Shown here piece after piece: positions 9,001-51,399 of a stretch of DNA of 64,000 nt; position 1 is the first letter of the stretch, and each line of letters begins with the position of its first letter. The position numbers and the translations under genes were made by a program. The DNA comes from Diacronema lutheri (taxonomy: Eukaryota > Haptophyta > Pavlovophyceae > Pavlovales > Pavlovaceae), in assembly GCA_019448385.1 (NCBI GenBank), contig JAGTXO010000025.1, forward strand, positions 1 through 64,000, read 5' to 3'. The notes beneath the pieces are model-generated. The model searched no databases. It worked only from the letters and a program-made list of their open reading frames with translations, and was not told the origin of the DNA.

Positions 9001-9777
9001 CTGGACGTCGAGCGTGTGCGCCTTGTCCGCACGTGTGCACTCACGTGCGTCTGCGGCGATCTGCCCGGCGTAGTAGTCCGCGCGCGCGGGAGCCGCGTCG
9101 GCAGTAGGAGCAGGATAACGTACTTGCGCCTGACGAGGACGGCGAGAAGTGCGGCTTTTCGCTCGGGGTCTACCATGCCGCCGAGGTTGGCGCTGGCGCG
9201 CGTGAGGCAGTCGGAGCGCGCTGGGCCCGGGTTGAAGGCCTCACCCCGGGGGACGGGAGGATTCAAGGCGCCGAGCCGCTGCGGGTGCGGCGGGAGGCCC
9301 CGGGCGGGTGTGCTAATGCGGCTCGATGGCCGCCTGCCGGGGGGGGGGGGGGGGGGAGGGGGGGGGGGGGGGGGGCGTTGGGCCGCCCGCGGAAACGGAG
9401 GTGAGCGTGTGGGAGCGGCGCGCGTCGGCGCGCGCGGCTGGCGTGCAGCACGGATAAGTCTTGTGTGGACTTCGCGGGGCGGATCCCGGTGCAGGGATTG
9501 CCGACGTAGGCCGCGAGCGCGAGCAGGGCGGGGATGAAGACGGATGATGGGGTTGGGGCCAAGGCCGCCGCACCCGCAGCTATCACGGTGGCAGCGACCG
9601 CCACGGTCAGTGCGAGGCTCGCGTGGCCGCTGCGCGGGCAGCTCGCCCGCCAGGTCCAGGAGGGCCGGCCTGCGGCCTCAGTGCCCAGCGTTGGGCATGT
9701 CAGCGTCTGCGTCTGCGGGCCCGCCACTGCGATGGCGCATTGAGCCTGGCGCACCAAAACGCAATCGGTCCGCCGAT

Positions 9778-9809
<32 letters not shown>

Positions 9810-11240: not shown

Positions 11241-11714
11241 AACTCCCAGCCAGGATGCGCCCCGTTCTTCCTGGACACTCTCCGTCCAAACCCGCCGCCC
11301 AGCCTGCCGCCGCACCCGCCGCCAACGCCGCCGCGCACCCATCCGCCGAGCTCACCTCGCGCGCGCTCGCGCTCACGCTGCGCGACGAGGCTGCGCAGGC
11401 CGGCGCGCGGCCGTGCAGAGCAGCGCAGGCCGGCGCGCGGCCGCGCGCGCGCGCTCACGTTGCGGCCGCGCAGCGAGCTTTCGCCGCGTCGCAGCCCCTC
11501 CGAGCAGCCACGATGCACGCCCCCGGAGGACGTTGGCCGCGCTCGGAGGCCGCGCTCGGGCGCGCAAAGAGAGGCGGCGCGGGCAAACGAGTAGGCTCGG
11601 CGCGCTGGCGGGTCCTGGTTGTGGGAGAGCGTGGCATTCTCCAGGGCATCATGTAAATTCTCCCAAGTATCATCCGGGCCGCCATCCGGACACTGACGTG
11701 CCCACAGTCTGCAG

Positions 11715-12450
11715 ATGGAGGACTCCGTGAAGGACGCTTTGCCCGGCGGGCGGGGCGGCTCGGACAGTTTCTCGCTGGCCCTCAGCACCATTCTGTCGCC
11801 GGGAGATACCCACCCCCACGTGGTCCCATCCACTTGCCTCATCGCCCTGCTGCGTTACGCGGATTTCGGCACGAGCAGGGTTAGGGTGGGCGACACGGGG
11901 TGCTCGCAGCATGCGCTCAAGGTGGCGCTGCGCAACCTGCGCAAAGCATGCGCGGATGCGGACCGGTTTGGGCAGGTGCTCGTGGTCGTGCTACCGCTCT
12001 GCCTCCGCGCGTCCAGCGGCCTCGTGCACTGGACGGCGGCGTACCTGCTCCTCGCGCCGCCCGCGCAGCGCGGCGCGCCGCCCGGCGCCGCGCTCGCCCT
12101 GCTCGCCGATTCGCGCACCTTGGGCAACGGCGAATCGGCGTACGCCACGGCGGCCGGCGTGCTCATCAAGAAGCTTGCGCAGCGCATCGGCAGAACAGCG
12201 CCGCCCATCGATGCCTTCAAGGCGCCCCCGCAGAGTGGGGCCGCGTGTTGCTTCGCCGCGGCAACAGTCGCGGCCGAGGTCGTGGCGAGCGCATCGACGC
12301 TCTACGGCCGCCGCGCGAGTGTCCTTGTCGACATCAAGAAGGCTTTGGACGCGTGCCTCGCGCGCCTCACGACGGCCGCGTACGAGGAGACCCGCGCGCG
12401 CACGCTCCGCGCCGCCATCGGCGCTCTGCTCGGCGACCGCGCCAGGCGCT
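11715..12450 (+). other. Domain: N-terminal Ulp1-like (C48) protease
   Basis: Catalytic order His-Asp-Gln-Cys is present: His in GLVHWTAAYLLL (codon 12027), Asp in ALLADSRTL (12108), Gln in APPQSGAACCF (12231), with Cys at 12246 or 12249. Spacing and the HW pair match the SUMO-protease/adenain fold used by KDZ-type and Polinton-type elements and by viruses. It should cut ubiquitin-like modifiers or the polyprotein itself. Confidence 0.7.
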
Positions 12451-15400
12451 TCGGCCCGTTCACCCGCGAGGCCGCGCGGCTCGCCGAGGCCGCGCGGCTC
12501 GCCGAGGCGTGCGATGCCAGTGTCGGCGGATCCGCGCCCGACGGGCTGCTGCAGGCCGTCGAGGCGGCGCTGCGCGCGCCCGACGACCGCATCGCACGCA
12601 CGGCCGCGCTCGACGCGCTCACGGGCGCTGCAGGCCGCGCGCTGTCGACGGCGGCCAGGCCGCGCGGCGCGGCGGCGCCAAGGCCGCCGTCGCGAGCGCC
12701 ACCGCCGCGTGCGCCGCAGCGGCGCGCCGCCTCGGCGTGGGGGCCCCGACCATTCAGCAGCCTCGGCGGGGGCGAGGGCGACGGGGACGATGGCGACGCC
12801 ACCACCGCTGACGACGGGGAGGGCGCGGAGGACGGGGACGACGACCCCGCGGGCGCGGCGGCTGCGGCGGTGGCGACGGGCACGGCGGCGACGAGCGCGG
12901 TGGCGGCGGGCGCGGCGCCAACCTCGCCGGCGGCGGCGGACGGCGGTGGCTCGGCGCCGCTCGAACGCCGCTGCGTCTACACTGCGCCTGATGAGGGCGA
13001 CGCGGACGCGCGCGTGTACGACGCCAAGGACCCCGAGCAGCTAAAAGCGGGCAGGGCGCGGCTACGGGCGAACAGCGGGCGCGCGCCCGCCGTGGTCGAC
13101 ACGCTTTTCGCGCACGCGACGGGCACGATCGTCACGCGGCAGCGCACGGAGGGCGTGACCGGCGCGGGCATGCACCACCTCGCCGCCCCGACGCAGGGCG
13201 CGGGGTACGGTACCGTCGTGCGGGCCGAGCTGGGCGAGCCCGGCTTCGCGGGGACGACATGGCACATGACGTCGGGCGTGGAGAACCAGCCGCGCGCGGT
13301 ACGAGCGGCCGCGCGCGCGTACGCGCACGACGGCTGGGGCGGCGTGTACAATGCGCACGAGGACTTTGCCGCCTTCGAGGGCTTGCCGCGGCTCGCCGCG
13401 CCCGAATCGCTCGCGGCCATCGCCGGCGGGTCGGCGGACGCGGTGTTCTGCTGGCGGTCCGGCCGGTCCGTCATCGGCGAGGTGACGACGGTTCACTTCA
13501 ATGGCGACCGCGCCGCCGCCATCGACCACGCGCGGGCGCTGCGCGTCAGGCCCGATTGGCGCTCGCAGCCCAGGATCTACGAGGCGGCGTGCGGCGCGGA
13601 GGGCACGGTGCTGCTCGTGTGGGTCGTGCCCGACCGTCACAAGAACCCGCGGCTGGACTGGGCGCCGATTCTCGTCGTGATCCACCTGCCCGCCGACCCC
13701 GACTGGCTCGCGCGCGCCACGCCGGCGATCGCGAAGGCGCGGCGCGAGGTCGAGGACGGACGCGCGCGCGCGGAGGCGCGCGGCGTGCCGCAGCACCTCG
13801 CCTACACGCTGAGCCCACGCTTCCGAGGCACCGCGCCGCGCGGAGCCGCGCGCGTGCCGCCGCGCCTCGGCGCGAGCGACGCGCGCGAGGCGCGCGCGCT
13901 CGCGGCGCTCGAGCCGGCGCTCATGTTCGCGCCGGCCTGGCGGCGCGCGGTGCGCGCGGCGAGCCGCGCCCCCGGCAGTGGCGCCGCGGCCGTCGAGCGC
14001 GCGCTCGCGCGCCTGCACAACGCGCTCGAGCCCGATGACGAGAGCGCGCCCGAGTCGACGCGCGTCGCGCCGCTCGCCGCCGCGCTCGAGCAGTCGGCGG
14101 GCTGGCCGGCGGGCACGGCGCGCATGGCGGCAAGCGTGACCAAGGGCCCCGGCGTCGGAGATGGCGCAGGTGGCGACGAAGTGACCAAAGTGGAGGAAAC
14201 GGCGAAGACGAGCGGCGACGGCTGCACCGGCACGCCTCCTCTGCGCCCGGCCGCGCGCGCGGCCGGCGCGGCGGACGACGGAGGGGCGGCGGTCGTGGCG
14301 GGCGTCGAGGGCGAGCGCGACGCACTCGCCAAGACGGGTGCCGGCGGCTGCGACGACGACGCTCGCGAGCCGCTGTCGGCCGGCAAGCCCGGCGCACTCG
14401 CCGCCGCGGCGACCGTCGGGGGTCTCGGCGAGCTCGTCGGCAGCCTATGCGCGTGGCTGGCGCGCGGCGCGGCTGGCGGCGCCATCGCGGCCATCTCCCC
14501 CGGGACGGCCGCGCGCGGAGCAAACGGCACGCCGCAGCGCGCCGAGCCGCCGGCCGCCGGCGATCCCGTCGCTCCGCACGCGCGCGTCGCCGCTGCGGCG
14601 CCCTTGGCGGGCAGCGCGGCGGCGCCGTCGTCGGCCGCGCGCGACGCGCAGCGCGGCGTCGCGGGAGTCGACGCGGCCGCGCACGCGCACGCGCGCGACG
14701 GCAGGCGGGCGGCACGGCGGATGCGCGAGCACGAGGGGGCGGTGCACAGGGCCTTCCGCATGTCCCTCTGGCGCGACGCGACGTTTGTCGAGTTCGTTGA
14801 GAAGCTGCGCCCCGACGGCGGCGCGCAGCTGCTCGCGCGCGAGCCCACGCGGCGCGCGGCGGCGGTGCTGTGCGAGCTCGCGCGCGGCCGCGACGGCGCG
14901 AGCGGCGCGGCCGGGCTGCTGCACGAGATGAGAGCCGCCGATGCGCGCGCGCGCGAGGCCGCCAAAGCGGCGGAGGCAGCGCGGCCTGCGCACGGGACGC
15001 TGCGCATCGTGGCAACCGTGGCGCTGGGCGGTGCGGTCTTCGCCGGCATGTCAGCGCTGGTCGTTGCTTGCGCGGCGCGCACGGCGACCGGTGCGCTTTT
15101 TGGGGCCCGCCGCCCGCGGGCGGCCGCGCGCGGAGCCGACGACGCGCTCGGCACGCTGCAGCGCGCCGAGCCGCCGCCCGCCGACAAGGGCAAGCGCAGG
15201 CGCGCCAGAGCCAACGACGACCCCGTCGACGCGGCGCGCAAGGCCGTGGGCAAGGCGGAGGGCAACTGCCGCAAGGCAGCCCGCCGGCTGCACCTCGCTG
15301 CACTGGGCGAGGAGGAGGCGCAGCAGCGCGTGCTCGACGCCGAGGCGGCGGAGCAGCTGGCGCGCTCGCGCGAGCCGGCCGGCGGCTGGGTAGGCAGCGC

Positions 15401-18400
15401 GCGCGCGCGCGCGCGCGCGCGCCCCGCCGCGCGCGCGCCCGTCGATTGGCGTGCGCGCAGCGCAGAACGGCGCGCCAGCTCCGTCACCTGCGCGCCGCCG
15501 CGCCCGTGCCCCTCGCGCGCAGGGGCGCCCTGCGGACCTGCGGCTGCAACAGGCGCACTTTGGCATGCGCGAAGATGCCGACGCGGAAGTGCGCCGCGCG
15601 CACGAGGCGCTGCGCCGGGCGAGACAGGGTGTGGCGTGCGCCAAGGCCAGCGTGCGGCAGATGGAGGCGGCGTTGCTCAACGCGACGCGCTGCGCCACCG
15701 CGGTGCTCGCGCCGCGTGGCGTGCCGGAGGGTGACGAGCAGGCCGCGGCGAGAGAGCAGGCGGCGCTGGACCGGGAGGCGCCGCCGGCCGCGCAACGCGC
15801 GGCGCCGACGGCGCGCTCGCCCTCGGAGCCGCCGTCCGAGTGGGGCCCGCCAGCGGTCGGCCGGCGCCCGACGCCGCGTGCACTGTCGCACGCCGCGGGT
15901 CGCGGGGACGACAACCCGTTTGCGCCGCTCGCAACCGTCAGCGGCGATTGGTCGCCCACGCCGAGCTCGCGCTCGCCGTCCTCGCCGCCGCGGCAGCCGC
16001 CGTCCGACCGCCGCAGCGCGCAGCGTCGCAGCGCGCGCGCGCGGCCGCCGAGGCCGACCGTTTCGCCCGAGGACGCGCTCGCAGCCGAGCGCCAGGCGCG
16101 CGCGCTGTCGGAGCAGGCGGAGCAGAGGCGCGCCAAAAAGGCCGCCGCCAAGGCCGCGCGCCGCGCCGCGCGCGCCGCCGACAAGCGGACGGCGCGCGTC
16201 GTCCACGCGTGCGTAAGCGCCGCCTTGCGGCGCGTCTGCACGAGCGTCGCCACGGGCACGCCGCTCGCCGTGCTCCGCGAGCGCGCCGAGAGGCCGCGCG
16301 CGCCGAAGGCCGCGCCCGCGCCACCACGCCGCGCAGCGGACGGCGGCCGCGCGCTCCGCCACGCGCGCCGTGCGGCCGCCGCGGCGGCGGAGCGCGAGGC
16401 GGCGGTGGCGGCCGACGCCGACGAGCGGTTCGAGCAGCAGCCCTCCGCCGCCCGGTTCGACGGCGGCGATGGCGGCGGAGGCGGCCACGTCGAGGCGAGC
16501 GCGCGACCGCGCACCGGCGAGGCCGGCGAGGCTGGCGCGCACGGCGCGCCTGGCGCAGCGGGGACCCCGGCGGCGTCGCTCGCGTCGCGCAGCCCGTGTG
16601 ATGCGCGCCGCACGGCACGCCTCCCGCACGCACGCGCCGCAGCCACCTGCGCACGCAACGGCGGCTGGGGTGGCAACGTCGGCGGCGACGTGTGCGGCGG
16701 TTGTTTCGGCGGCGGCGGCGTCCGTCGCGACGCCTGCGGCGGCGGCGACGCCACCTGCGGCTGCGGCGATGGCGGCGTCGGTGCTGGCGCTGGCGAGGCC
16801 CCTGCACACGGTGCGCCGGCGCGCGCGACGGCGTCGCGCTTGCTGCGCTTGCTCGGCGCGCCACGCGCCGTGCTCGGTGCGATGGCGCACGCCGCGGCCG
16901 TGTTGGCGCGCGGCGTGGCCGCAGCCGTCGCTGGCGTGCGCGCCGCCGCGCGCGCCGAGCGGCGCGCGCGCCGCCGAGCGCCTTGTGCGCGCCGCACGGC
17001 TGCGCGGCGCGCTCGCGGCCCGCCGATGCGCGACGTCGACGGCGCCCTGCGGCCCTCACCGTCTTGGCCGCGCACACGCCTCGTCTGCGGCCGGCGCCTC
17101 GCGCCTCTGCGCCGCGCGGGCGCGCGCCCGCCGCCCGCACACGCCGCGCCGAGTTCCCGCGCGCGCGCTGCGCAACCCGACAGCGACGCGCCGGCGTGCG
17201 CGCCGCGGCGCTCGGCGCCTGTCGGTGCGCCGCCGCGCGCGCGCGGCCTCTGCGCGGCGCGCGCACGGCGCGTCCTCGACGTCGCCGGCCGCGCGGCGCG
17301 GAGCGCGCGCCTCGGCGCGCGCATCACGCGCCAGCGCACGCCGGGCCCGTCATCGGAGCCCTGCACGGCCGAGAGGGGCGACGGCGCGGGCGCCGGCGGC
17401 ATCGGCGCGGCGGCGCCTGGCGCGGCGACGATGCGCGCCACCGGCGCGCGCGCAGCGCGCGCTGCGGCGGCGGCGGTCGGTGGCGCCTCGCGTCTCGCGC
17501 GCCGCGCGATGGCAAGCGCCGCCGCCGCTGCCACCTCCATCGCCGGCGCTACCGCCTCCACCGTCGCCGCCGCCGCCGTTGCCATCGGCGCGGCCGTCAC
17601 GTCACCGGTGTTCGCCGCGGCGCGCGGCATGGCGGCCGCATGCGTCGCTGCCTGCGCCCGCCCCACCGCCGCGCAGGCGGCCGCGTCGCGCGCGCTCGGC
17701 GCGCTCTTCGTGCTCGTCGACGCGGCCGACGCGGCGGGCGACAGCGACGCCGCGCTCGGCGCGCTCGCGGCCGCGGTCGACGCGACGGAGCTGCGCCCGC
17801 CGCCGGCCTTTTGGCGCGCGGGCCGCGCCGCGGCGTACGCACCGCGTCCGCCGCCCCTCAACTCGGCGCGGCCGCGCTACAACCGGCGCGCGCGCGCACC
17901 TAGCCCTCCCGTCGCGGCCGCGCGGCGCAATCTCGCGCGCGCGGTGCGCGAGCTCACGCGCGCCGCGCGCGCTGAGCGCGAGCGCGCGCCGGCGCCGCGC
18001 GGCGCGCGCGGCGGCGTGCTCCACGCGCTGCGCGCGTCGCTCCCCGTGCACGCGCGCGCCGCGCTCGGCACGGACGCGGAGCTGCGCGCGGACATCGCCG
18101 CGTTCGCGCGCGCGCGCCGCGAGCTGCACAGCCTCACCGACGCCGAGGTGGCGGCGCTCGCGCGCCCGGACGGGCCGCCGCTGCCCGTGCGGCTCGCGTG
18201 CACGGCGGTCGCGCGCGCGCGCGGCGTGACCGTGCTGCTCGACATCGTGCCGCGCGGCGGCGGCGCGCCCGAGCGGCTCGTGTGCCGCGCCCGTCGCCGC
18301 GGCGCCGCCACGCGCACGCCACGGCCGACAGCCGCCGTTATCGCGCGCGCGCCTTGCATAGCGGCGCGCGTTGGCCACACTGAGCCGGCGCGCGCGTGCG

Positions 18401-19970
18401 CGGGCGGATCGATCGGGGTCGCGCGCCTCCGTTCAGCGCGCCGCCGCTCTTGGCGTGGGGCGCGGCTCGACGTGCACACCCGCGAGCGGCTGGCCACACC
18501 GGTGCCAGGCCACGTCGTGGCCTGCGCCGCCGCCTCGGCCATCGGCGCGTGCGTCGCTCGCGCGCGGCTTGGGCTTGCACGGCTGGCGCGCGCGTGGCCC
18601 TGCGCCTCCGCTCCACTGGCCGCTGCTGCTGTCGCCTTCGCGCCTGCCGCCGACGGTGTTTTCTGCGCCCCGCTGGGCGCTCCTGCATCCGCCTTCGCGC
18701 CTGCCGCCGACGGTGTTTTCCCCGCCGCACTAGCCGCTGCTGCATCCGCCTTCGCGCCTGCCGCCGATTTTCCCGCCCCACTAGTTGCTCCTGCATTCGC
18801 CTCCGCGCCTGCCACCGACGGCGTTTTCCCCGCCCCACTAGCCGCTGCCGCTGCCGCGTCCGCGCCTGCCGCCGCGGGCGCGTCTTCCGCCCCACCAGCC
18901 ATCGCCGCCGCGCCCGCCGCCAACGCGCGCACCGCCAACGTGCCCGTTGCCAACGAGGCTACCGCCACCGAACCAGCCGCCCTTGAGCTTCCCCTCCAAC
19001 CCGCCAACTCGGCGCTGCTTGCGTGGGCGGGCGACGCGGCTGCGCGCCGGCTGGCCGCCGCCGCCGCGAGCGCCGGCCTCCCGCAGGCAGAGGTGGAGCG
19101 CATCGCCAGCGGCGACATGCTCGCCTCAACCGTCGACGCGTGCTGCGAGGTCGTGCTGCGCGTGCACGGGCAGGCCGGCGGCGGGCATGTCTGCCACGTG
19201 CCGCTCGCCGCGCAACCCGCGGTGTTTCAGGACGACGCCGAGCGCGCCGCGCTGCTGCACCGCCTGCGCAGCGAGGCGACAACGCAGGCTGTCATCGGCG
19301 TGTGGAGCCCGTCGGACGAGCGCGGCGGCGCGGGCGGTGACGACGGCGCGCAGCTCGCCTCCGGCCATTTCACCGCGTTGCGCCTTGTGCGCGTCGCGCG
19401 CGCGGGCGAGCATCGCTACGACGCGGTGCTCGTCGACACGCTCGCGTCGCCCTGCAGGCAGGCGCTCATGCTCGCCAAGGCGATAACTGCCACGCTGCAC
19501 GCGGCGGGTCTCGACATTTCGCGCGTGCGCCGCGCGCTGCTGCTCAACGAGGCGGCGCAGCGTGGCGCGACGTGCGGCCTCGCGATAGTGGGCGCGCTCA
19601 ACGACGCGCTCGCCGCGGCGGGCTGCTCGTCCGCGCCGCGCACGTTCAGCGTGGCGGACATGTACGCTGTCGGCGAGCGCCTCCGCGTCGCGCTGACCGG
19701 CGCGGCCGGCGATCGTGCGCCGGGCGGCGTCTGCGCGGTCACGAGCGCGGTGCGCGGCGGGGGCAGCCCCGATGGCGCCGAAACGCCGCCGCAGACGCGC
19801 GGCGCCAAGGCCGCCGCTGGCGTCACCGCCGCCGCCACCGCCGCCGCCACGCCGCCGCCGCCCGCGCTGGGCGCCGCCGCCGCCGCCACCGCCGCCGCCG
19901 CCGCTGCTGCCGCCGCCGTGGCCGCGCCGCCACCGCCGCCACCGCCGCCGCCGGCCGGCGACGCGGGCGA

Positions 19971-20013
<43 letters not shown>

Positions 20014-23000
20014 GCCGCGCGCACGTTCTTGAAGCTCGCGCCCAGGGCGCGCGCGGCCGCCTCGGCGCGTGAGGCGTTGCGCGCCGCGTGTGCGCGCGCG
20101 GACGCGGCGGCGTCGTCACACGCGTCGGCGCCGCACGCGCCCGCCGGTGCGCGCCGCCGGCGGCGCGCGGGCGCAGGCGAGCTGGCGCTCGCGGCTGCGC
20201 GCGCGCTCGCCTCGACGGAGCACGGCGATTTGACGGACGACGCGCTCGAGGCCGCCGTCGAGCAGGAGCTGGGCGACGAGCGCGGCCAACTGCTGCTGTG
20301 CACGCGGGGCGCAGCGGCGCAAAGGCCCGCGCTTTGCCGGCTCCTGAAGCACGCGTGCGCGTCGGCGCGCGCGGCGAAGCGCGCGCAATTCACGGTGTTC
20401 GTCGTGCGCGCGGCCACGCGCGGCGAGCGGGGGGGCGCCGCCGCGAGGCGCGTGGACTCGGTGGTCGAGCTGTCGTGCGCGCTGCACGAAAAGGCGGGCG
20501 CGCTCGGCGGCCTCCAGAGCGTCTGTGTGCGTGGCTTCGCCCTCGAGCGCCGCCGGACACTCGACGGTGGCGCCGAGGCCGGCGCGTCCGCCATCGGCCA
20601 GGACGAGCAGGTCGAGGCAGAGGCGGGCGAGGCGTGCGTCGCCGGCGTGACGATGGCCAAGCAGCTGCGTCAGTTTGCCGAGCAAGCTGCCCGCGACGAC
20701 GTGCTCTTCCGCGTCGCCGTGTCCGAGGCCGACGCCCACGCCCGGCTGGCGCGCGTTGCGGGTGACGATGTCGGCGCGTACAGCGTCGTGCTCGCAGTCG
20801 CCGGGCTCGTCTGGCTGGCCAAGGCCGACGAGGTTGCGCCGGCGGCCGCCCGGTCCGCCGCCGCGCCGCCCGCCGCCCCGCCTGCTGCCGCCACGTCCGC
20901 CGACGCCGAGCGCGACGCCTCGCCTTCCGACCGCCTGCGCGCGCTGACGCTCGCCGTGCGAGTCGCGCTCGCGCGCGGCGTGCTGCGCCACCTCCTCGCC
21001 GACGCGTCGCCGGGCGCGTCCGCGACCGCTGGCGGTAGTTGCGCGACGCCCGTCGAGGCGGCCACGTCCGCCGCCGCGCCGCCCGCCACGGGCGTCGTGA
21101 CGAGTGGCGTCGCGGCGGGCGCTGTGGCGGCCGCACCGGCTGCTGCGGGCGGTGCGACGGCGGGTGCATCGCCCATCACGCGGCCGGCGAAGCGCGCGCG
21201 GCGCACGCTCACCGCCGCTCCAGCCGCCTCGGCCGTTGCGGCCGCTGGAGGCGCACGCGCGGGCGCACGCGGCGCGGCCGGCGCGCCTCGCGCGCGCGCC
21301 GCGCGCGCGCCGGCCGAGTACGTCTGGCTTGCCATCGCGCGCCGGATGCTGGCGGCGCGACACGCGGCGGCCGCGGGCGGCGACTTTGTCGCGTCGTGCG
21401 TCGCCGCGATGCAGGCCGAGTACGGCGACGGCTGTGCCGTCGTCGTCGGCGACGCGCCTGATGACGCCTTGGTCGAGGCTGCGGCGGCGGCGCTGCTCGA
21501 GGGCAAGCACGCGGCGGTGAGCCTCGGCTGCGTCGACCGGCCGGCGGTGCTCGTCGTGCAGCGCGCCGTGGACGCGCCCACGTCGCGCGTGCACGGGTGG
21601 TGCGCGCACGCGGCGGGCGCCGCCGAGTTTGACGAGGGCGCCGCGCACGGCGTGTTCAACGCGATCGTCGAGCGCGCGTGGGCGCTGCGTCCGGACCCGG
21701 CTGACGGCAGCCCGCCGCCCACGCGCACGTGGGAGGTCGAGCAAATCGCTGGCGACGCGCCCGACCAGGCGGGCGTGGCCGCGCTGCGCGTGCTCTACGC
21801 GCTCGTCGCGGCGCACGGCCGCTACCGCTCGGCCGCCGCGCTCTTTGGCGCGCTCGCGCAGCTGCACGCGCCCGACGCCGCCGGCGCGCGCGCGGAGGTC
21901 GTCGCGGCGGCGTGCGCGGTGCCGCACGGCGCGCGGCCGGGCGCCGCGCCGGCGGCCGCGCGGGACGACGCGAGGGAGCGCGCATGGGAGGGCGCTCAGA
22001 TCGCCGCGCTCGCCGTCGGCGCGGACGCTGCGCGCAGGCGTGTCGCGCCCGTGCGCGCGCTCGTCGACGCGCTCGGCACGCCACCGACCTCGGCGATCAC
22101 GGGCGGGCCGGCGGTCCGGCTCGCGGGCGCGGGCGACGGCGGCCACGGTGCACGGTGGGTGGGCGGGCAGGCGGCGACGCCCGCCGAGCAGCTGCCGAGG
22201 GAGCTGCTGCGCGCCTACCACGAGGCGGTGCTGTGCGTCACGCCCGGCAGCCTCCAGCTCGGCCCGGCGGCGCTCGACGCGGTCACGCGGCCGCGCGAAA
22301 ACGACACGCTGGAAGGCCTCCTCGCGCGCGTCAGCTGGCAGTGCGGCGCGAGGGCGAGCACGTGCGCCATGCTCGCCACGTTTTCCGAGCAGGCGGGCAC
22401 CGGCTCGCGCGTCGCGCTCAAGGCCCTCCGCACGAGCTCCGACCTGGCCGGGCTGACGGCGGCTGCGGTCGGGCAGCAGGCGCCGCAGACGCCGCCGCCG
22501 CCGCTGCTCGTGATGCTCGGCCGCTGCCCCAGCCCGCTCGTCGGCGGCGGCCTCTTCCCGCCCGACCGCGCGACGGGCGAGCCGGCGGTGCACGCGGCGA
22601 CGTCCGAGCTCGCCGTCGAGCTGCTGCGCGACGCGCGCGCGCTGGCCGGCACGGACGGGCGGCTCGTCGTGCTGTGCCTCGAGGCGTCCAACCCGCTCTG
22701 GTTCTGCCCCAAGGTGCGCGAGCTCGAGCTGCCGCGGACGCGGTCGGACGGCGTGCGCGCGTCCGGCTGCACCTGCCCTGCGACGTGCAGCGATGCGCGC
22801 GGCGCGGCGGGTGGCGCTGCCCGCGGCGCATCGACGCGGCCGGCGGCGCGCGCGATCAACAAGGCGGTGCTCGACCACTTCGTCGCGCTTTTCGGCCGCG
22901 AGGGCTTCGCGACCTTTGAGTTTGCGGGCGGCGGCGAGGCGAGCTGGCTGTGCGACAGCGCGGCCGGCAAGACGACCGTCGCGGCGTGCGCGTCGCTCCC

Positions 23001-26000
23001 GCCGCGCATGGGCGATGGGCAGCTGGCCATCCGGCGGCACACGCTCGGCACGGGCGCCGACGCGCCGGCGCACGCCGTCGTCTCGCTCCGCGTCGCGCAC
23101 GTGAGCCACGCCATCCGCCGCGCGGCGGACGACGGCGGCGCGCGCGCCGAGCGGATGGCGCGCGCCGCGCGCGCGTTTTGCGATGTGGCGGCCGCGCTGC
23201 GCGTCGACGCGATCCTGGCGGAGGTGCCCGAGGACCGCCCGACGGGCACGCCCTTCCTTGGCGGGCTGCTCGAGTTTTGGAACAAACGCCACGGGAGCTC
23301 GACGGCGCCAGCCACGCTCGCGCTCGGAGACGTGCGCGAGGTGGCCAAGCGGACGGCCGACGCAGCGGCCGGCCGAGCGGACGAGGTCCCTGCGGCTGGC
23401 CGTCCGCAGGTCGCGGCGCGCGCGTGCGCTGGCGCGATTGGCGGCGGCGCGGGCGCGGCGGGCGCCTCGGACGCTGCGCCCCGTGCACTGGCGGGCGCGT
23501 CGGGTGCGCGCACGGACGGCGGCCCTGCCGACGCACCGCGCCAGCTGGAGAGCCGCTACGGCGAGGCGAGCAAGCTCGACCTACCCCAAGATTCCACTAC
23601 GGGCTGCGTCCTCGACGCTCGCGAGGCCCAGGACCGCGCGCGCGTGCCTGCTGCGCCCGACGGCACAGCGCTGCGCCGCGTGCTCGACGCCGTCGGCGCG
23701 GGCGCGCCCGCGCAGCGCAGCCCGCGCTGGCACGACGAGCGATGGGAGGAGGTCACGGGCAGCAAGGTTGGCGACGTCGTGAACGACAACGCCGGCGTCG
23801 CGCACGAGACGCTCACCGACGAGTACGTGCACCGGCGGCGGCGCGAGGTGCGGACCAAGGCGACGACCGCGGGCATCCTCGGCGAGGCCGTCGCGCTGCG
23901 CAAGCTGGCGGCCGCGTACGGCATCACCGTCGTGTGCAACCTGCCGATGGTGCGTGCGGACCCGCACGACAAGAGCGCGCCGTTCGCCTTCTCGCCGGAC
24001 GGGCTCGCCATCCTCCCCGAAGACAACGAGCAGGTCCTCGTCGAGGTGAAGACGCTCACCAAGGCGGACGCCAAGGCGCACGAGGACGGGCCGCCGCAGC
24101 CGCACCGCGATCAGCTGCAGCTCGGCATGCACGTCCTCGGCGTGCGCAAAGCGCTCTACGTGCAGTACCTCAGGCACGAGGACCGGATCGTCGTGCACGT
24201 CGTGACGCGCGGCGTCGGCTGGCTTGCATTCGCGCAGCCGAGGGTGCAGGCCTTCTGGGCGCGCGTCGTCGAGCGGCGCGCGCGGCTCGAGCGCGCGCGC
24301 GCCGACCACCCGGCTGCGAGCCGGCGGCACCGGCGGCAGCAGACGCCGGCCGGGCCGCCGCTCGTGCTCGCGCTGGACGGGCGCATCCCCGCCGCGCGCG
24401 CCGCCGCGCTGCACGCCGTCGCGCACGGCACCGCGAGCGCGGCGGCGGTGGCGGCGACGGCGGCGACGGGCGACGCGACGGCGTTGCAAGACGCGATCGC
24501 GGCGCTGCGCGCGCCCGTCGGCAATGCGGCGATCGACAGCGCAGCGCGTGCGGAGCGCGCGGCCGTCGAGCGGGCGATCGCGTACCTCGGGCAGCCGGCA
24601 GGCGACGCCGCCGCCCGCGGCACGGCCGAGGCGGCCGAGGAGGAGAGGACGGTCGACGCCGACATCTGCGCGTTGCTGCACCAGCTCGGCGCGAGCGTGG
24701 CGCACGTGCACGTCGAGGACGCGGATTGCGTCACGCGTGAGCACTGGGGCGGGGCGGTGCTCGCTGCAGCGGGCGACCCGTCGAGCGCCCCCGCCATTTC
24801 GAGCGTCATCGTCGCGCACATCGTGCGGCTCGCCGGCTTTGGCGTCGAGCTCCCGCAGTCGATTCGCGTCGCCCCCAGCACGGCCGACTGGCACGAGGGC
24901 TGGCTCGACGTGCAGTGCGTGCTGCTGCGCACGCGCCGGCGCGGGCGGCGCGACGACGACTTTGTGGCCGTCGTCAGGCGCGGTGGGCGCTGGTTTGCGT
25001 GCGAGCCCGGCCGCGCGCGGCGGCTGCAGTGGCGGTCGGTCCTGCGCCGCGCGCGCGGCGGCGTCGACGGGACCGGCGAGGAGGCGTTCGCGGTCGTCTA
25101 CGTGCGGCGCGGCGACGCGGCCGGCGACGCGGCTGGCGACGCGCAGGCCGAACGGGCGCGCGGCGGGCGCGCGCGCAGGCGCGCGCGCGGCGGCACGCGC
25201 AAGCGCAAGCGCGGCGCCTCCGCCGGGCTCGAGGCGGCCGCGCCCGCCGGCGCGCCGGCGGGCGCTGCTCACCGCCCGCCCGCCAGGCGTGCCACGGTCG
25301 CCGCGCGCACCACGCGCTCTGTGACCGACGCGCGGCACTCGGCGCCTGCCGCCACGGTTGCACCTGTCTTCGACTGGCGCGCCGGCCGCCCGCCCCCTGC
25401 CGCCGCCGCCGCCGCCAAGCGCGGCCAGGCGCTCGAGCCGGGGCAGTTCGCGCGGCCGCGTGGGCGCGCGCCATGGGGCAAGGTCTGGGACAGAGTCTCG
25501 GGTGCGTGGGCGGACAAGCCGACTGGTGCTGCCGTCGCCGCCGCGCCGCCGCCGCTGCCGCCCGCCGCCGCGCCGCCGCCCGCCGCCGCGCCGCCGCCCA
25601 CCGCCGCGCCGCCGCCCGCCGCCGCGCCGCCGCCCGCCGTCGCGCCGCCGCCCGCCGCCGCGCCGCCGCCGCCGCCGCCACCGGCGGCGCTCGGCCGCCG
25701 GCAGCACGTCGGCGCGGGCGGCAGCGCGGCGGGCCGGCGGCTCGCGGCCATCGCACGGCGGCAGCGCGGCGTGCGCGCGCCGCCGCCCGCCGCGCGCTTC
25801 CTCGCCACGCTGCCGCCACCGCCACGCGACGGCCTCGCGCGCACGAGCAAGCAGGCGCGCGCGAGGCGCAACGCGGACGGACGGCCGGCGCACGCGCGCG
25901 CGGCCAACGCGCGCGCCTTCTACCGCGGCGTGGAGCTCGGCGTGCACGCGACGCGCGCCATCGTCGACGCGCGCCACGCCGACCTGCCGCAGGCCGTCTT

Positions 26001-29000
26001 CGTGGCGGAGGCGCGGGCGATCGTCGCGCGCTCCGCCGGCGGCGGCGCGCTGCTCGCGCCGGACGACGTGCGCGACCTGTGCGACGCGCAGACGGACGCC
26101 GATCGCGCTGCGATCTGGGCGTCGGTGGGCGCGCACGAGGCGACGCGCATCTTCGCGCTCGTCACGCGCAACGCGAGCTTGGCGGGCGCGGCGCTGCTCG
26201 TGCTGCACACGCCGGCGGGCGCGCCGGCGCGCGCGCTCGGGCTCCTGGCGACGCGCTCGCGCGCGCCGTCGACGGGCGCGCCGCGCGACGCGCACAGGGC
26301 GCTGGTGCAGCGGTTGGACGTGCTGATGGACGCGATCGCCGCGGCGCGAGGCGCGTCGCCGCTCGAGCTCGAGCTCGCGCTCGCGCCCGAGCCGCAGAGC
26401 GCGTGCAACGCGCGTGCGGCCGCGCTGCTCTGCCTGCAGGCCGTCGCGGACGCGAGCGGCCGTCCCGCCGCTGAGGACGCGCTGGCCGCGCTCGACGACG
26501 CGCGCGGCATCGACCGGCACTGCCACGCCGTCCGGCAGCAGATCGAGGCGAAGCTCGCGTGGCGGCGCGCCGACGGCGCCGTCGGCGTTGACGGCGCCGA
26601 CGGCGCGCCCGCGCTCGCGCCTGCCGCCGCACCGCCGGCGTGCGCGCCGGCGCACGCTGCCGGCGAGGCGGCGGTCGACCAGGCGATCGTCACGCGGGTG
26701 CGCGACGCGCTGCGCGCGTGGGCGACGACTGGCACCGCGCCCAGCGCGGCGGTGCTCGACGACGCCTGCGCCGCGTACACGGCCCGCGCACGCGCGCGCA
26801 AGGACGCGCGCACGGCGCTGGGCCCGACGCGCGCGGCCGAGCTGCTCGCCGCGGCCGCGCGCGGCGGAGCCGACGGGGCGGATGCCGCGCGCGCGCTGCT
26901 CGGCGGCACGCCGCGCCTGCTCGTCGTGCTCCTCTGCGTGCCCGTCGCCGCGCCGTCCGGCGAGCCGCCGCGCCCGGTCGGGCTGCTCGTCGCCGACCGG
27001 CCGACGGACGACTCGCGCCCGGCCGCGCTCGTGCGCTACGACTTTGCGCCGCTCGACGCGGACGTGGCCGTCGCGGTCGGCGCGCATGCCGTCGCGCTGG
27101 CCAGTGCGATCTGGCCGCTGCTCGCGGCCGAGGGGGAGCCGCGGCCATCGCCCGTCGTGCGCTCGCAGCCGCGCGGCGGCGACGATGGCGCGCGTGCGCT
27201 CGCAACGTTCGCGTGCCTCGACGCGCTGATGACCGCCAGCGTCGGCGCGCACGGCCTCGCGGGCGGCGCGGGCATGCTGCCCGCGCTGGTCGCGCGAGGC
27301 GCCGCGGCCGCCCAGCGCGAGCGGCAGCTGCGCGCGGCCGCCGAGAGGCTGGGCGGCACGGTCGCTGGGTGGCCGGACACGGGCGCGAGCGCGGCGGGCG
27401 CGAGCGTCGACGAGGAGGCGCGCACGTACGAGGTCGAGGCGGTCGTCGACGAGCGCCGCAAGGCGGGCAAGAAGGTGACGTTCCAGTTCCGGATCAGGTG
27501 GCGGGGCTACGACGAGAGCGCCGACACGTGGGAGCCTGAGGCCAACGTGAGCAGCGACCTCGTCGCCCAGTTCCGCAAGACGCGCGACGAGCAGAAGCGG
27601 CGCGCGGGCGTATCGGGCAGCGGCAGCGGCGGCGCGGGCGCGGCGTCGGCATTGGCGTCGGCGCCGCTTCGCGCGCACGGCGAGTCGGGCGCCGCGGGCA
27701 AGCGCGCCGCGGCGGGTGCCGCCGCGAGCGCGCGCGACGCCGCGGGCGCGCGCGCGCCGAGCGTTCCCCGCGCGCGCGGCGTCGAGCGCGCGCGCGTGGA
27801 CGAGCCCGCTGCGCCGAGCGCGCGCGCCGCCGGCGGCGCGACGGCGCGCACGCGCGTCAGCGTGCTCCCGGGCTTCGTGGTCAAGCGCTCGACGCTCAAC
27901 GCGGGGCCGCAGGCGGTGACGGCGCAGCCCGGTGCGCGGAAGGAGCTGCGGCGCATCGCGGCGGCCGTGCACAGGCTCACGACACAGGCGTACCGCGTCA
28001 TCAACAAGGTGGTGCGCGACGAGGCTGCGGTGGCGAGCGCGCAGGCCGTCGGCGCGGCGTCGGGCGGCCCGTCGACCAGCGTGCACACGTCGACCACGAT
28101 GGACAAGGGAACCGTCCGTGCGATCTTCTCGGCCATCGGCTGGCACAAGGACGAGAGCACGTACGGTGCAGCGCCCCGAGGCAAGCCCGCCGAGCAAGCC
28201 GCCGCGCAGACCAAGGCGGCGACGGCGCGCGCCGTCGGCGAGATGGCCGAGGGCGTCCAGCCCGTCTGCGCGGTGGGCCTCACGGAGATCCTCGAGGCGG
28301 AGGCGACGCAGGTGTCCACCGCGTGCCTGATGCATCCATCGCGCGTCGTGAACGGGCTGCTCCGCGACGTCGTCCGCGCGGCAGTCGAGCGCGACGAGGC
28401 GCTCGTCGCGCTGCCCGAGATGCAGCGAAACGCGCGCGTGCGCGAGCTGTGCGAGCGGCTGCTGCGCGGCGACGTGGAGGGCGCGCGCGTCGGCTGCCCC
28501 GCCGCGCTCGACCGCCACCTGCCCGACATGGTCCTCCACAAGATCGACTACAAGTGCACGCCCACGAAAAGGTGGAACTACGACCGGCACACGACGCGCT
28601 ACTTCCTCGTGCAGATCCGCACCCTGCAGCACGTGGCCGAGGGGCAGGCGCTGCTCTGCCGGCTCGCGCACATCCACACGCAGCTGACCGGACGGCCGCC
28701 GCGGTACAATGTGGCGCCGCTGCGCACGCACAATGTGCGCGCGAGGCGTGGCTGCCGCTGCCGCCGCCGAGGGCCCAAGCGCGCGCGCGCCGCCGCCGTG
28801 CGCGCCGCCCCGCGGCCAGGTTGGTCACGCGCCCGCGCGCTCGCGCGCCGCGCGCTGCGCGCAGGTGCCGCGCAACGTGCGCTTCGCCGCGAGCGCCATC
28901 TGGGTGACGCTTTCGGATGACGAGCGCAAGGAGCTGCGCGCGCGGCTCAAGGCGCTGGACCTGCGCGACCACGATGGCGAGCCGATCAAGTGGACAGGCA

Positions 29001-30589
29001 CAAACGGCAACACCCCGCCGATGTCGGACGTGCGCGTCAGGTACGCGGTCTTTGCGACGCGCTTCGACATCTCCAACCGCGTCTTCGACTACGCCGGGCG
29101 CGAGCGGCCGCCGGCCGATCTGCCGTGGCACGCGCGGCGCTCGTGGGTTGGCCTCGCGCCGCTGCCGCGCGTGCCGCTCCCGGGCCGGCAGCCCGTCAAG
29201 TCGGTGGTGACAGATGGCGTCGCCGTGCACGCCGTCGGGACCGTCCTCGTGCCGAAGGCGCAGGCGCCGGCCGGCGGCTCGGGCGTCCTGCACCGCTGGC
29301 GCCGGCCGGACGGGCGCATCGCCGTCGCGCTCGGCTCCGAGCTGCGGCGGGCGATCGACGTCGAGGCGGCGGTCGTCGTCGCGGCCGACCCGAACATGGG
29401 CAACATCACCACCTACTCTGCGCACGTCGGGCGGGCGGCCGTCTGGCGGCAGTTCACGCAGCGCGCGCGCGCGCGCGCCGCGGGCTTTGCGCGCGAGACG
29501 GCCAAGACCAACGCGGCGCGGCGGCGCGTGCGCAAGGACGGGCGCGGCGAGGAGTTCAGCGTGGAGGCGGACGAGGCGCGGCTTGGCGAGGCGCACAGCG
29601 CCAAGGTGCTCGGCGAGGGCGAGTTCCACGCCTTCCACCGCGAGAGCGCGCGGGTGCGCGAGCGCGCCGCCGAGCACGTGTACGACGCGCCGGCGCGCCG
29701 GAAGGAGCGCTGGCGGCGCGACAGCGGCGGGCGGTCCAACGCGGCGCGCGTCGCCGAGGCGCTCATCGCGGCGCACTGTGTCGACGGCGTGACGCGCGAC
29801 CGGCTGCTCGTGTGCGTGGGCAAGTGGCTGCGCGACCACAAGGGCGCGCAGCCCAAGGGCGCGCCGCCCGCCTTCCAGGTGGGGCTGCTGCGCGAGCTGC
29901 GGCGGCGCGGCGTCGCGGCCGTCTTCGTGCCCGAGCCGTACACGTCGATGCACTGCTCGATGCCGCGGCTCGCCAAGGGCGGCAGGCTGCAGCGCTGCGG
30001 CGCGGAGCTCGCGCAGAACCCGCGCCTGCCCGTGGCAAAGGGCGGCACGCGCACGGTGCACGCGCTCGTCATCTGCCCGGCGTGCAACGGCGGCAAGAAG
30101 CCCGTGCACCGCGACTACAACGCCGCGCGCAACATCTTCTACGACGTGCACGACATGGCGGCGCACGCGGCCGGGCGCGACACCACGTCGACGCCTGAGC
30201 GCTTTGCCCTCGTGCTCGCCTGGTGGGCGCGCGGCGAGGTGTGGGAGCGTGAGGAGCGCATGGTGCACGGCGAGGGCGACGACTGCGACGACGAGTGCGA
30301 CGGCGACGACGAGGGCGACGACGAGGGCGACGACGACGACGACGACGATGGCAGCGGCGACGGCGGCGGCGGCGAGGGCGACGGCGACGGCGACGGCGAC
30401 GGAGGCGGCGGCGGCGACGACGACGATGACGGCGGGGGAGGCGGCGGCGGCGACGGCGGTGGCGACGACGGCGGCGGGCGCGGCGGCGGTGGCGGCGGCG
30501 GCTCTCGCGCCCGCACCCCCGCCCGCGGAGCTGCCAGCGCCAGTGCCGGCGGCGGCAGCGCGCGCGGGCCGAAGCGCGGCCGGCGTTGA
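11715..30589 (+). CDS. Giant polyprotein: Ulp1-like, YqaJ, chromodomain, Fanzor
   Basis: Starting at ATG 11715, three exons (11715-15389, 15523-28734, 28865-30589) with phase-0 GT-AG introns give one frame of about 6,203 aa. Order: C48 protease; an unknown middle with CWRSGRSVIGEVTTVHFNGD (about 13,450) and a hydrophobic span (about 15,000-15,090); Ala/Arg-rich linkers; second C48 protease; three to five C48-like stretches without the cysteine; YqaJ nuclease; Pro/Ala repeats; chromodomain; Fanzor with an Asp/Gly tail. It may be one self-cleaved polyprotein, or several genes whose internal starts and introns I cannot see, because GC-rich DNA leaves frames open. ATG 11715 directly follows CTGCAG, so it could instead be an internal exon start. 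Third positions are G/C-rich as in the host, so no recent base-composition foreignness. Confidence 0.6.
15390..15522 (+). other. Intron 1 of the polyprotein gene
   Basis: Donor GTAGGCAGCGCG after a Trp codon, acceptor CTCGCGCGCAG, 133 bp. Helical charged sequence (LDAEAAEQLARSREPAGGW) before it continues as GRPADLRLQQAHFGMREDAD after it. The coding frame switches exactly across the intron, which supports it. Confidence 0.7.
19000..19650 (+). other. Domain: second Ulp1-like (C48) protease
   Basis: The clearest protease in the frame: His in SGHFTALRL (19366), Asp in DAVLVDTLASP (19435), Gln and Cys in EAAQRGATCGLAIVG (19558 and 19573). All four catalytic positions are in the order and rough spacing of Ulp1/SENP enzymes. 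A Pro/Ala low-complexity arm of (GCC)n follows it at about 19,800-20,030. Confidence 0.8.
20190..21990 (+). other. Two C48-like stretches lacking the catalytic cysteine
   Basis: Two consecutive modules share the layout of the intact proteases: a helical front, a hydrophobic strand (for example AVLVVQRAVD at about 21,545), an Asp/His-rich middle, and a block in the place of the Gln/Cys loop. In the second module this block reads EVEQIAGDAPDQAGVAALR (about 21,735), with Ala where Cys is expected. They look like inactive copies, perhaps kept to bind modifiers or the polyprotein. The match is by pattern only. Confidence 0.35.
22150..23600 (+). other. Unassigned domain of the polyprotein, Cys/Trp-containing
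   Basis: Well-composed protein sequence with LVVLCLEASNPLWFCPKVRE (about 22,665), a short Cys cluster GCTCPATCS and LRVDAILAEVPEDRPTGTP (about 23,200). It shows acidic residues at regular places, as nucleases do, but I cannot match it to a family. It directly precedes the YqaJ nuclease and may be its partner domain. Confidence 0.35.
23713..24290 (+). other. Domain: YqaJ / lambda-exonuclease-type nuclease
   Basis: The family signature is complete: QRSPRWHDERWEEVTGSKV at the front, GILGEAVALRKLA with a conserved Glu (23884), SPDGLAI with the metal-binding Asp (23998), LVEVKTL as the ExK motif (Glu 24043, Lys 24049), and DQLQLGMHVLGVRKALYVQY at the end. YqaJ enzymes are Mg-dependent 5'-3' dsDNA exonucleases of viral recombination systems and are found in several large eukaryotic transposons. 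Here the nuclease sits inside a polyprotein instead of being a separate gene. Confidence 0.85.
24600..25120 (+). other. C48/USP-like stretch after the YqaJ domain
   Basis: The block DDDFVAVVRRGGRWFACEPG followed by EEAFAVVYVRRG (about 24,950-25,120) has the layout of the His strand and closing strand of papain-fold proteases. The expected His is replaced by Asp (DFVAVV instead of HFVAVV). It may be another inactive protease copy. Confidence 0.3.
25549..25690 (+). repeat. Coding minisatellite: Pro/Ala (PPPAAA) repeats
   Basis: About six copies of an 18-bp unit (GCCGCCGCGCCGCCGCCC) encode PPPAAAPPPAAA-type linker in the polyprotein frame, varied only by single changes (PPPTAA, PPPAVA). It separates the nuclease half from the chromodomain/Fanzor half and is prone to length change. 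Confidence 0.7.
25900..27270 (+). other. Two further C48-like modules without catalytic cysteine
   Basis: Two tandem modules of 200 or so residues. Each has a hydrophobic strand pair (AALLVLHTPAG..ALGLLATRS and RLLVVLLCVPVA..VGLLVADRP), then a Gln-led loop where Gln-Cys is expected (APEPQSACNARAAA about 26,390 and RSQPRGGDDGARALA about 27,165), then a helix. The usual Cys is missing or displaced. I infer repeated papain-fold pseudo-proteases; sequence identity between the two is low. Confidence 0.3.
27424..27595 (+). other. Domain: chromodomain
   Basis: TYEVEAVVDERRKAGKKVTF, then FRIRWRGYDESADTWEPEAN and a closing helix SSDLVAQFRK. The three aromatic cage positions (Tyr of TYEVE, Trp of IRWRGY, Trp of DTWEP) are intact, so it should bind methylated lysine on histone H3. 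Chromodomains joined to mobile-element proteins are known to steer insertion into heterochromatin. Confidence 0.9.
27870..30235 (+). other. Domain: Fanzor (eukaryotic TnpB-like) RNA-guided nuclease
   Basis: The N-terminal helical part contains RRIAAAVHRLTTQAYRVINK. The family phrase around YNVAPLRTHN then VPRNVRFAASAIW is joined across the intron at 28735-28864. RuvC-I Asp lies in VVVAADPNMGNITTY (29387), RuvC-II Glu in AVFVPEPYTSMHC (29933), the zinc-ribbon cysteines in MHCSMPR, RCGAEL and ICPACNGG, and RuvC-III Asp in HRDYNAARNIFYDV (30113). All three catalytic acids are present, so the nuclease looks able to act. Fanzors descend from IS605-type TnpB and cut DNA guided by an RNA, usually encoded around the 3' end of the gene. 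Here it is the C-terminus of a much larger frame. Confidence 0.85.
28735..28864 (+). other. Intron 2 of the polyprotein gene, inside Fanzor
   Basis: Donor AAT|GTGCGCGCG, acceptor CTGCGCGCAG|GTG, 130 bp, phase 0. The Fanzor phrase PLRTHN-VPRNVRF is contiguous in relatives and changes frame exactly at this intron, which makes it one of the best supported introns in the window. Confidence 0.85.
30260..30589 (+). repeat. Asp/Gly-rich coding low-complexity tail of the Fanzor frame
   Basis: (GAC)n and (GGC)n triplet runs encode an acidic then glycine-rich tail (DDECDGDDEGDDEGDDDDDD) of about 75 residues, ending in a basic patch GPKRGRR before TGA. Tails of this type are not part of the Fanzor core. 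The basic end could act as a nuclear localisation signal. Confidence 0.7.
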
Positions 30590-31111
30590 CGCACGGCCGA
30601 GCCGCGCAGCGGTCGACGCTTTGCGGGCTCTGCCCAGGTCGCGCGCGGCTGGCGACGCGTGCCGCGCGCGGCACGACCGTGCACGCCGCCACCCGTGGCC
30701 GAGCGCGCCGCACCAGCCGGCCCGCTCCAACCGCCGTGCGGATCACGGACGCTCGCTACGGCTCGTCGGCGCGCGTCACCTGCGCCGGCGGCCACGGCGC
30801 CGTCTGCTCCGGCCTCGTCGCGAGCAGCCCGACCGCTGCTCGCCGCCCGCACGCCGCCGCAGCAACGCTGCGCGTCGTGCTCCCCCGCTCGCCAAACGCG
30901 AAGAGCTCCCTCACAAGGACGTCCTTCCGAACGGCCCGCGCTGCACTCGGGGCGCGATCGTGCCCCTGATCGGATTTGGCTTGACCATCTATACATTCCC
31001 ATATTCGGGGTCGCCTATGAGGCGATCCGGGGTGTCGTACCAAGTGGACTAAAATTGTAGAGTCTTGGTCGTACTGTGGAGGCGTTGGGTAAAAACTCCG
31101 CGTCGGCCTCC
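30590..31111. other. No gene called; element right flank and CAMTA promoter
   Basis: About 520 bp without supported coding. The first 350 bp stay GC-rich and are where a Fanzor guide RNA and the element end would be expected. The last 150 bp turn AT-richer (GACCATCTATACATTCCCAT, then ACTAAAATTGTAGAG, GGTAAAAACTCC) and are the likely promoter and leader of the CAMTA gene at 31112. I see no terminal repeat matching the left side of the element. Confidence 0.5.
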
Positions 31112-35582: not shown

Positions 35583-35719
35583 CGCACCGCCGGTTCGCGT
35601 GCGCAGTGAGTCCGCGACGGATGCACGGTGCACCGCCACCACACCGCCGGACCGCGCGAGTCACTGTCCTGCCATTGGCAGCGTACGCAACAGTCAGCAT
35701 CTCGTCCGTGCAAGTCAGC

Positions 35720-37731: not shown

Positions 37732-37818
37732 ACCCGATGAACATGCCGCGGCGCCCTGTGCTCATCGCACGGGCAAGCCTCGTGACGCTCAGACCCAAAC
37801 TCACGGGCATCGACCGCG

Positions 37819-38433: not shown

Positions 38434-38706
38434 CTTTGGGGATGCGCCGACGGCTGGGGATGCGCCGATGACGTCCGCCGTGGGAGGCGGGTCAGTCCGC
38501 CGTCGTTTCACAAAAAAAAATGGCGTATGCGTGATTGCGTTTGAAGGACGTGGACTGGGAGCGCGCGTGCGTGCGCGTGGGCGCGCGTCCGTGTGCGCAC
38601 GAAGCTGCCCGGACGCCAGCGCTGCCGTCGGCGCGTGTGCCGCCGCTTGCCGGCCGCGGCAAAGAACGTGCCGAGGGGATCGTGCGAAGGAGCAAAAGAC
38701 ACGTGT

Positions 38707-44879: not shown

Positions 44880-44939
44880 CCAAGTTGGCCGCGGCACCGG
44901 ACCACGCCCGCCAGCAGCAGGCAGCCCCCACTTTGTGCG
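44880..44939. promoter_or_regulatory. 60-bp divergent promoter interval
   Basis: Only 60 bp separate the start codons of the HD/CoaD-like gene (-) and the NKAP gene (+). No TATA-like element fits; the interval is C/G-rich (CACCGGACCACGCCCGCCAG). Transcription of both genes must begin inside it or inside the opposite gene. Confidence 0.55.

Positions 44940-51331: not shown

Positions 51332-51399
<68 letters not shown>

Follow-up and report, generated by a model that had tools for sequence, protein, structure and literature searches.

The window analysed here, a 64,000-nucleotide stretch of Diacronema lutheri DNA, opens with a mobile element of about 31 kb (about positions 2-30994), and the giant gene region at 11.7-30.6 kb is part of this high-copy element. 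We interpret it as a copy of a giant, recently active D. lutheri DNA transposon with recombination-coupled copying by its own enzymes, a reading to which we give a probability of roughly 0.55. The element and its domains are observed and form the secure part of this reading; the copying mechanism is tentative and, in our view, less likely right than not. The features of the element are as follows.

2-30994, + strand: mobile element, one complete copy of about 31 kb (homology with copies C29 and C82, terminus counts)
1990-2858, no strand assigned: internal palindromic array of 869 bp, about 90% self-complementary, with GGGTGTA runs (window self-BLAST)
3431-5760, + strand: Pif1-type helicase gene spread over two or more frames (PF05970, PF21530)
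6859-8355, + strand: UCH/USP-like deubiquitinase open frame, best match at 7561-7827 (PF00443, E = 4.3e-8)
11715-15389, + strand: exon 1 of the giant gene, with donor 15330 or 15390 at its uncertain 3' border (open frame, GC3, splice candidates)
12027-12251, + strand: C48-like H-D-Q-C motif 1, motif level only (post-hoc regular expression)
15553-28734, + strand: exon 2 of the giant gene, with an uncertain 5' border (4,508-codon open frame, GC3)
19366-19578, + strand: C48-like H-D-Q-C motif 2, motif level only (post-hoc regular expression)
23728-24135, + strand: YqaJ/lambda-exonuclease-type domain (TIGR03033, PF09588, residues)
27427-27579, + strand: chromodomain (PF00385)
27856-28734, + strand: probable N-terminal Fanzor part in exon 2, itself unmatched by any profile (spliced to the conserved beginning of exon 3)
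28735-28864, + strand: phase-0 GT-AG intron, ...PLRTHN^VPRNVRF... (sequence, joined frame, indel in copies)
28865-30589, + strand: exon 3, with Fanzor/TnpB RuvC, C4 zinc ribbon, acidic/Gly-rich tail and stop (PF07282, motif, relatives and copies)
30590-30994, + strand: 3' non-coding end, candidate guide RNA scaffold site (position only, weak folding signal)

The borders of the element were defined by comparison of its copies. The C29 and C82 copies are homologous to the window from position 2 to about 30994, and the first base is identical in three copies. At the 5' end, S-TATA is followed across the border by TAGGGCGCGG, and the 3' end reads GACCATCTATAC up to the border. A search of the 43.5 Mb genome recovered the 5' terminus 223 times and the 3' terminus 225 times, with no match for the reversed control. 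A Fanzor-bearing gene within an element delimited by so many termini is therefore transposon machinery or cargo, and the first-pass annotation, which had suggested an unusual mobility system, was borne out to that extent, although it had not recognised the high-copy element around the gene. Element copies are inserted at TATA, and TATAC closes all 31 complete 3' ends read, with flanks that differ by eye beyond it. Inspection by eye revealed neither the terminal inverted repeats that mark TIR/DDE transposons nor a flank repeat longer than TATA in 17 usable flank pairs. The TATA common to both junctions may be a 4-bp target duplication; a pattern search for empty sites returned no matches. The palindromic array is also present in two other copies of the element.

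Between the listed element copies, the protein pieces used for searching show 98-100% identity. At this identity, the YqaJ piece has at least 150 stop-free genome matches (150 scored of 240 candidates) and the Fanzor piece at least 111 (111 scored of 403). One copy of 21.5 kb is a mosaic relative to the window copy, with 99% identity over its first 2.4 kb, 90-95.5% at 4-8.8 kb and 98.5-99.97% over its last 11 kb, a pattern that recombination between subfamilies would give. Several contigs end exactly at element termini. A purely assembly-made repeat was ruled out because the 3' ends read run into differing flanks, and a telomere-specific element was rejected since many copies are interior and TTAGGG arrays lie at the ends of C15, C29 and C30. 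The D. lutheri genome paper reports 22.9% repeats, and its main text contains no word starting with "transpos" (PMC8379373).

Upstream of the giant gene, the helicase gene starts with an ATG at 3431 and encodes a long N-terminal part without family assignment, followed by a Pif1 core (4364-4600 and 4561-5007, PF05970, E = 4.2e-14 and 1.8e-24) and a Pif1 2B domain (5326-5457, PF21530, E = 6.2e-13). Within the giant frame, the YqaJ exonuclease proposed in the first-pass annotation is supported by TIGR03033 (E = 1.6e-7; 31.6 bits, below the strict cut-off of 68) and by the D, E and K of SPDG...EVK, intact in 21/21 copies read; profile match and D...ExK core together place the domain among YqaJ/lambda exonucleases. 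The PF09588 search suggested with that proposal was equivocal, falling 0.8 bit below cut-off in the window and exceeding it only in copy C71 among 150 scored of 203 genome candidates. A PDB search with the YqaJ domain gave chance matches only, and when this region of the 4,508-aa frame was used as a protein query, none of 6,015 candidates matched at E 0.01. The predicted chromodomain was confirmed (PF00385, E = 5.7e-12; 45.8 bits, cut-off 25.1). C48 proteases, also predicted, were not confirmed: neither the whole frames nor 10 pieces of them matched PF02902 (Ulp1), and the two H-D-Q-C motifs fit a pattern that was written after both had been seen. No profile-supported protease was found in the giant frame with Pfam, and the cleavage of a polyprotein into a nuclease set that nicks and targets chromatin, as the first-pass annotation put forward, stays hypothetical.

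Exon 3 carries the predicted Fanzor/TnpB-type nuclease. Its RuvC residues are D (29387), E (29933) and D (30113), and the TNB zinc ribbon of TnpB/Cas12f RuvC at 29897-30136 matches PF07282 above cut-off (E = 2e-6, 28.3 bits against 26.3). A motif search also found in exon 3 the arrangement D-X(125,275)-[TS][TS]-XX-C4 zinc finger-X(5,50)-RD, by which TnpB and Fanzor proteins are defined (PMC3627910). The relative P0002, 45% identical, keeps the three acidic residues and the four cysteines, and the catalytic triad is conserved in all 20 copies read, including that of the window. The NCBIfam guided-TnpB model, which is meant for prokaryotic proteins, scored 14 bits (E = 0.023) against a cut-off of 100. 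PDB sequence searches with the Fanzor part returned a single relevant chain, a Cas12f1 (E 0.35 and 0.015), and the AlphaFold model of exon 3 was poor (pLDDT 41).

Whether these domains belong to one protein depends on the frame. Plus-strand open frames cover 11697-15734, 15394-28920 and 28688-30589, the gene would start at the ATG at 11715, and its predicted product of about 6,200 residues could be one giant multidomain protein. The first-pass annotation had joined all three exons in a single frame; the intron between exons 2 and 3, in phase 0, stands, with 5,021 codons free of stops after joining, but the exon 1-2 splice is one among several possible joins. This ambiguity favours another reading, which we consider rather unlikely: a genuine element whose YqaJ, chromo-Fanzor and other proteins are made separately through internal promoters, other starts or alternative splicing, and stops are scarce partly because of a GC content of 75-80%. 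High-GC sequence does yield long frames, with maxima of 1,778 codons in order-1 and 2,581 in order-2 simulations of the same stretch (n = 100 each). However, the 4,508 codons of exon 2 exceed every simulated maximum, which ruled out a chance open frame, and in 113/150 scored copies 4,000 codons or more can be read without a stop. The same frame is marked nearly throughout by third-position GC, the highest of the three codon positions (exon 1, 8/8 windows; exon 2, 29/32, the exceptions lying at 16.8 and 18.4-19.4 kb; exon 3, 2/2). A separate C-terminal protein is suggested by the record P0001 (570 aa), which begins at window 28877, and by in-frame ATGs at 28709 and 28733 that could start an unspliced product. 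Against this, P0002 homology starts at the splice acceptor (28865), the first ATG within exon 3 is codon 53 of that exon, and the ATGs further upstream are located within or ahead of the intron, where 13 of 19 copies read, the window copy among the 19, have a frame-changing 2-bp deletion (of the 20 Fanzor loci, the rearranged L024 gave no intron). YqaJ-Fanzor spacing is 5,401-5,485 bp in 71 paired copies among the 111 Fanzor matches listed, and 70 of these 71 spacings are consistent with indels that keep the frame, whether or not the 2-bp intron deletion is added, on a modulo-3 reading that chance would satisfy about two thirds of the time. Comparison of the window with the near-identical C9 copy (synonymous/nonsynonymous changes 0/2 in exon 1, 33/77 in exon 2 with omega about 0.93, 1/8 in exon 3) did not show purifying selection.

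Helitrons carry a Pif1-type helicase, and the element could be a Helitron2-like rolling-circle transposon with Pif1, Fanzor cargo and no target duplication. The Pif1 match and the absence of a visible duplication beyond TATA agree with this, as Helitron2 elements usually have no TSD and those of Chlamydomonas contain Fanzor1 (PMC3627910). Nevertheless, we judge this origin improbable: the frames scanned have no Pfam Rep match, the only HxH strings, four in number, have no other Rep features around them, the ends of the element are TATA...TATAC and not the TC...CTRR of Helitrons, its genes are far larger, helicase and Fanzor lie in separate genes, and its 5' ends number about as many as its 3' ends. 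YqaJ, Pif1 and UCH genes are also carried by large DNA viruses that infect eukaryotes, which would suit an integrated giant virus or polinton-like virus whose remnant multiplied. Fanzors are likewise found in such viruses (PMC3627910), but the scanned frames showed no match to a capsid, polymerase or integrase, and IMG/VR scans, made with short exact peptides against records that may omit those near this genome, found no relative; we consider a viral source highly improbable.

The giant-transposon reading can also be set against other known systems. IS200/605 and IS607 elements with TnpB have no TIR and no real target duplication, insert at a fixed short motif and carry the RuvC gene at the 3' end. 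The D. lutheri element resembles them in all these respects, with TATA as the motif, but it spans 31 kb with introns, no TnpA-like recombinase was found in it, and its guide RNA is hypothetical. Fanzor1 proteins travel on eukaryotic DNA transposons, where a cargo role is already known (PMC3627910; PMC10432273). Like these, the nuclease described here has a C-terminal RuvC with the D, [TS][TS]xx-C4 zinc finger and RD motif on a high-copy mobile carrier; unlike them, it lies in frame with a chromodomain and YqaJ at the end of a giant gene and has no sequence match to the solved Fanzor chains in PDB. The eukaryotic DNA transposon ISL2EU (PHIS) likewise encodes a YqaJ exonuclease, in the second ORF of an element of about 4.8 kb with a DDE/HTH/THAP transposase and TIRs (PMC4482050), whereas no such transposase or TIR was found here.

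Pfam scans of the frames gave no transposase, integrase or Rep match. We propose that an unrecognised recombination activity would insert the element at TATA, and that a guide RNA read from its 3' end into the flank may direct the Fanzor to cut element-free copies of the flank-matched site. The YqaJ exonuclease would then resect the break, the Pif1 helicase would support copying of 31 kb from the occupied locus, and the chromodomain could tether the protein to chromatin. No guide RNA was seen, and folding of the 3' end is weak (z -1.8 at 30725-30874, -2.1 at 30800-30949). Five copies have a left flank situated where related short repeats end, and in the four of them whose right flanks are known these differ, a pattern unlike guide-directed homing. 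Neither the Fanzor-chromodomain-YqaJ fusion nor this element type was found in the literature searched, and the element is possibly a new superfamily. That it founds a giant-element superfamily without classical transposase, in which a fusion of nuclease, exonuclease and chromatin anchor acts with Pif1 in break-induced 31 kb copying into element-free sites, is a speculative and doubtful extension.

If each of the 223 5' ends bears a copy of 21.5-31 kb, we estimate that the element makes up 11-16% of this compact algal genome. If our reading is true, Fanzor would here be built into a large recombination protein and not be a small stand-alone gene, which is relevant to the still debated role of Fanzors in eukaryotic transposons.

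Giant-gene sequence recurs many times in the Diacronema lutheri assembly, which totals 43,492,796 bases in 103 contigs (PMC8379373 gives 43.5 Mb, 103 contigs, 73.25% GC and a longest contig of 3.042 Mb for the NIVA-4/92 genome). On contig C32, the window covers positions 1-64000. The YqaJ exonuclease piece had at least 150 genomic matches at 98-100% identity (the best 150 of 240 candidates), and the Fanzor RuvC piece had at least 111 (the best 111 of 403). Copies on contigs C29 and C82 aligned to the window from base 2 on, the C82 copy being diverged near 46-100, and 3' homology between copies stopped at about 30994. A genome pattern search allowing up to two mismatches recovered the 5' terminus 223 times and the 3' terminus 225 times, with 0 matches in the reversed control. 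Together, these alignments and recurrent termini place the giant gene within a roughly 31 kb mobile element. End coordinates among the matches listed point to length variants of about 21.5, 26.3, 31 and 32 kb; in one 21.5 kb copy, window 8760-18995 was unmatched, 2.4 kb of other sequence took its place, and the match resumed from 18995. In a rearranged copy, L024 (C9:426032-430135), the Fanzor exon abuts an inverted piece of window 24642-25964.

Features of the window:
2-30994, mobile element
about 3.4-5.8 kb, Pif1 helicase
6.9-8.4 kb, UCH-like frame
11715-30589, giant gene, three exons
35435-37822, frame for a Sir2-family deacetylase (PF02146, E=4.2e-56), within host DNA adjoining the insertion
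38705-38777, minus strand, tRNA-Met gene
44598-47291, NKAP-type frame
51113-53245, ankyrin repeats

Within the element's 5' non-coding region lies a palindromic array (1990-2858) that includes GGGTGTA runs and 104-bp inverted units; two other copies have it too. The window also contains a 137-bp direct duplication with 97% identity (42811-42947 and 43000-43136) and an unbroken run of 65 G (51333-51397); the L024 copy is flanked by a stretch 98% like window 43060-43284.

At the left end, C or G preceded TATATA(G/C), once TATACAG, in 28 of 30 copies read; one exception lay inside a T run and the other was the window copy, at the contig edge. All 31 complete right ends read finished in ...CCATCTATAC. 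Inspection by eye of 17 flank pairs with both sides present, paired by position, revealed no repeated flank beyond TATA; no terminal inverted repeat was seen by eye, and one search for an empty insertion site found none. Several contigs of the assembly (G000) terminate precisely where the element's 3' end lies (for example C1:2-23, C5:1-22, C6:2-23, C12:2-23, C3:444878-444899 and C32:562133-562154), and the 5' end lies at a contig edge more rarely among the matches listed (C32:4, C82:1529053). These stops are probably assembly breaks at a repeat exceeding read length, which leaves the 3' bias unexplained. The 25-mer GCTGTCCTGACGTAAGCGCCGTTAG has 174 exact copies, within one of several short dispersed repeats that often terminate in GTTAG-TATA and adjoin some giant-element copies (left flanks at loci L047, L049, L053, L064 and L087). 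Perhaps these are small elements sharing the giant element's TATA target.

The roughly 6,200 codons proposed in the first-pass annotation agree with the three-exon total, counted from ATG 11715. Exon 2 stays open through 4,508 codons, versus simulated maxima of 1,778 and 2,581 (100 simulations each). Third-position GC was highest in 39 of 42 windows over the exons, failing to be so at 16.8 and 18.4-19.4 kb, with a narrow margin at several low-complexity places. Several candidate splices could join exons 1 and 2. A phase-0 GT-AG intron (28735-28864) links exons 2 and 3; the match to P0002, a metagenomic relative, begins exactly at 28865, and the first internal ATG of exon 3 is codon 53. This intron carries a 2-bp deletion in 13 of 19 copies read, and in-frame ATGs at 28709 and 28733 make an unspliced start possible.

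Profile matches identified the chromodomain (E=5.7e-12) and TNB zinc ribbon (E=2e-6). Lambda-exonuclease TIGR03033 scored below its cut-off (E=1.6e-7), as did PF09588 (YqaJ), slightly, in the window; genome-wide, among the 150 of 203 candidates scored, only the C71 copy exceeded the PF09588 cut-off. Catalytic residues were intact in all 21 copies read for YqaJ and all 20 for Fanzor, window copy included; in P0002 (45% identity) the RuvC triad is conserved, as are four cysteines. The EukProt record P0003 (labelled Pavlova_lutheri) matches window 22369-23643 at 99.8% and may, or may not, derive from RNA. The C48 proteases proposed earlier found no profile support; two C48-like H-D-Q-C motifs fit a pattern that was written after they were seen and that had 0 matches in 500 shuffles.

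Between the window and C9 copies, synonymous/nonsynonymous changes numbered 0/2, 33/77 and 1/8 in exons 1 to 3, a pattern with no sign of coding constraint. In a more diverged stretch (18995-19794), changes favour third positions (39 versus 25 and 24). No transposase was recognised in the frames scanned, solved Fanzor chains gave no sequence match, the NCBIfam guided-TnpB model did not reach its cut-off, and the predicted structure was too poor for use.

Among the open-literature titles and abstract openings listed on Fanzors, YqaJ/giant transposons, Helitrons and TnpB polyproteins, none described an element of this build. Its existence, ends, copy number, mosaic copy and parts are established here. 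A cut-and-copy role of Fanzors with single-stranded DNA transposons is discussed in PMC10432273; according to PMC10711439, the copy number of some Fanzor elements runs into the hundreds, and flank nucleotides become part of the Fanzor guide RNA scaffold. We propose that an unrecognised activity would insert the element at TATA, with Fanzor cutting perhaps steered by RNA from the element's 3' end and YqaJ performing resection. Pif1 supports break-induced replication, and the element's Pif1 may assist copying, while the chromodomain would provide tethering.
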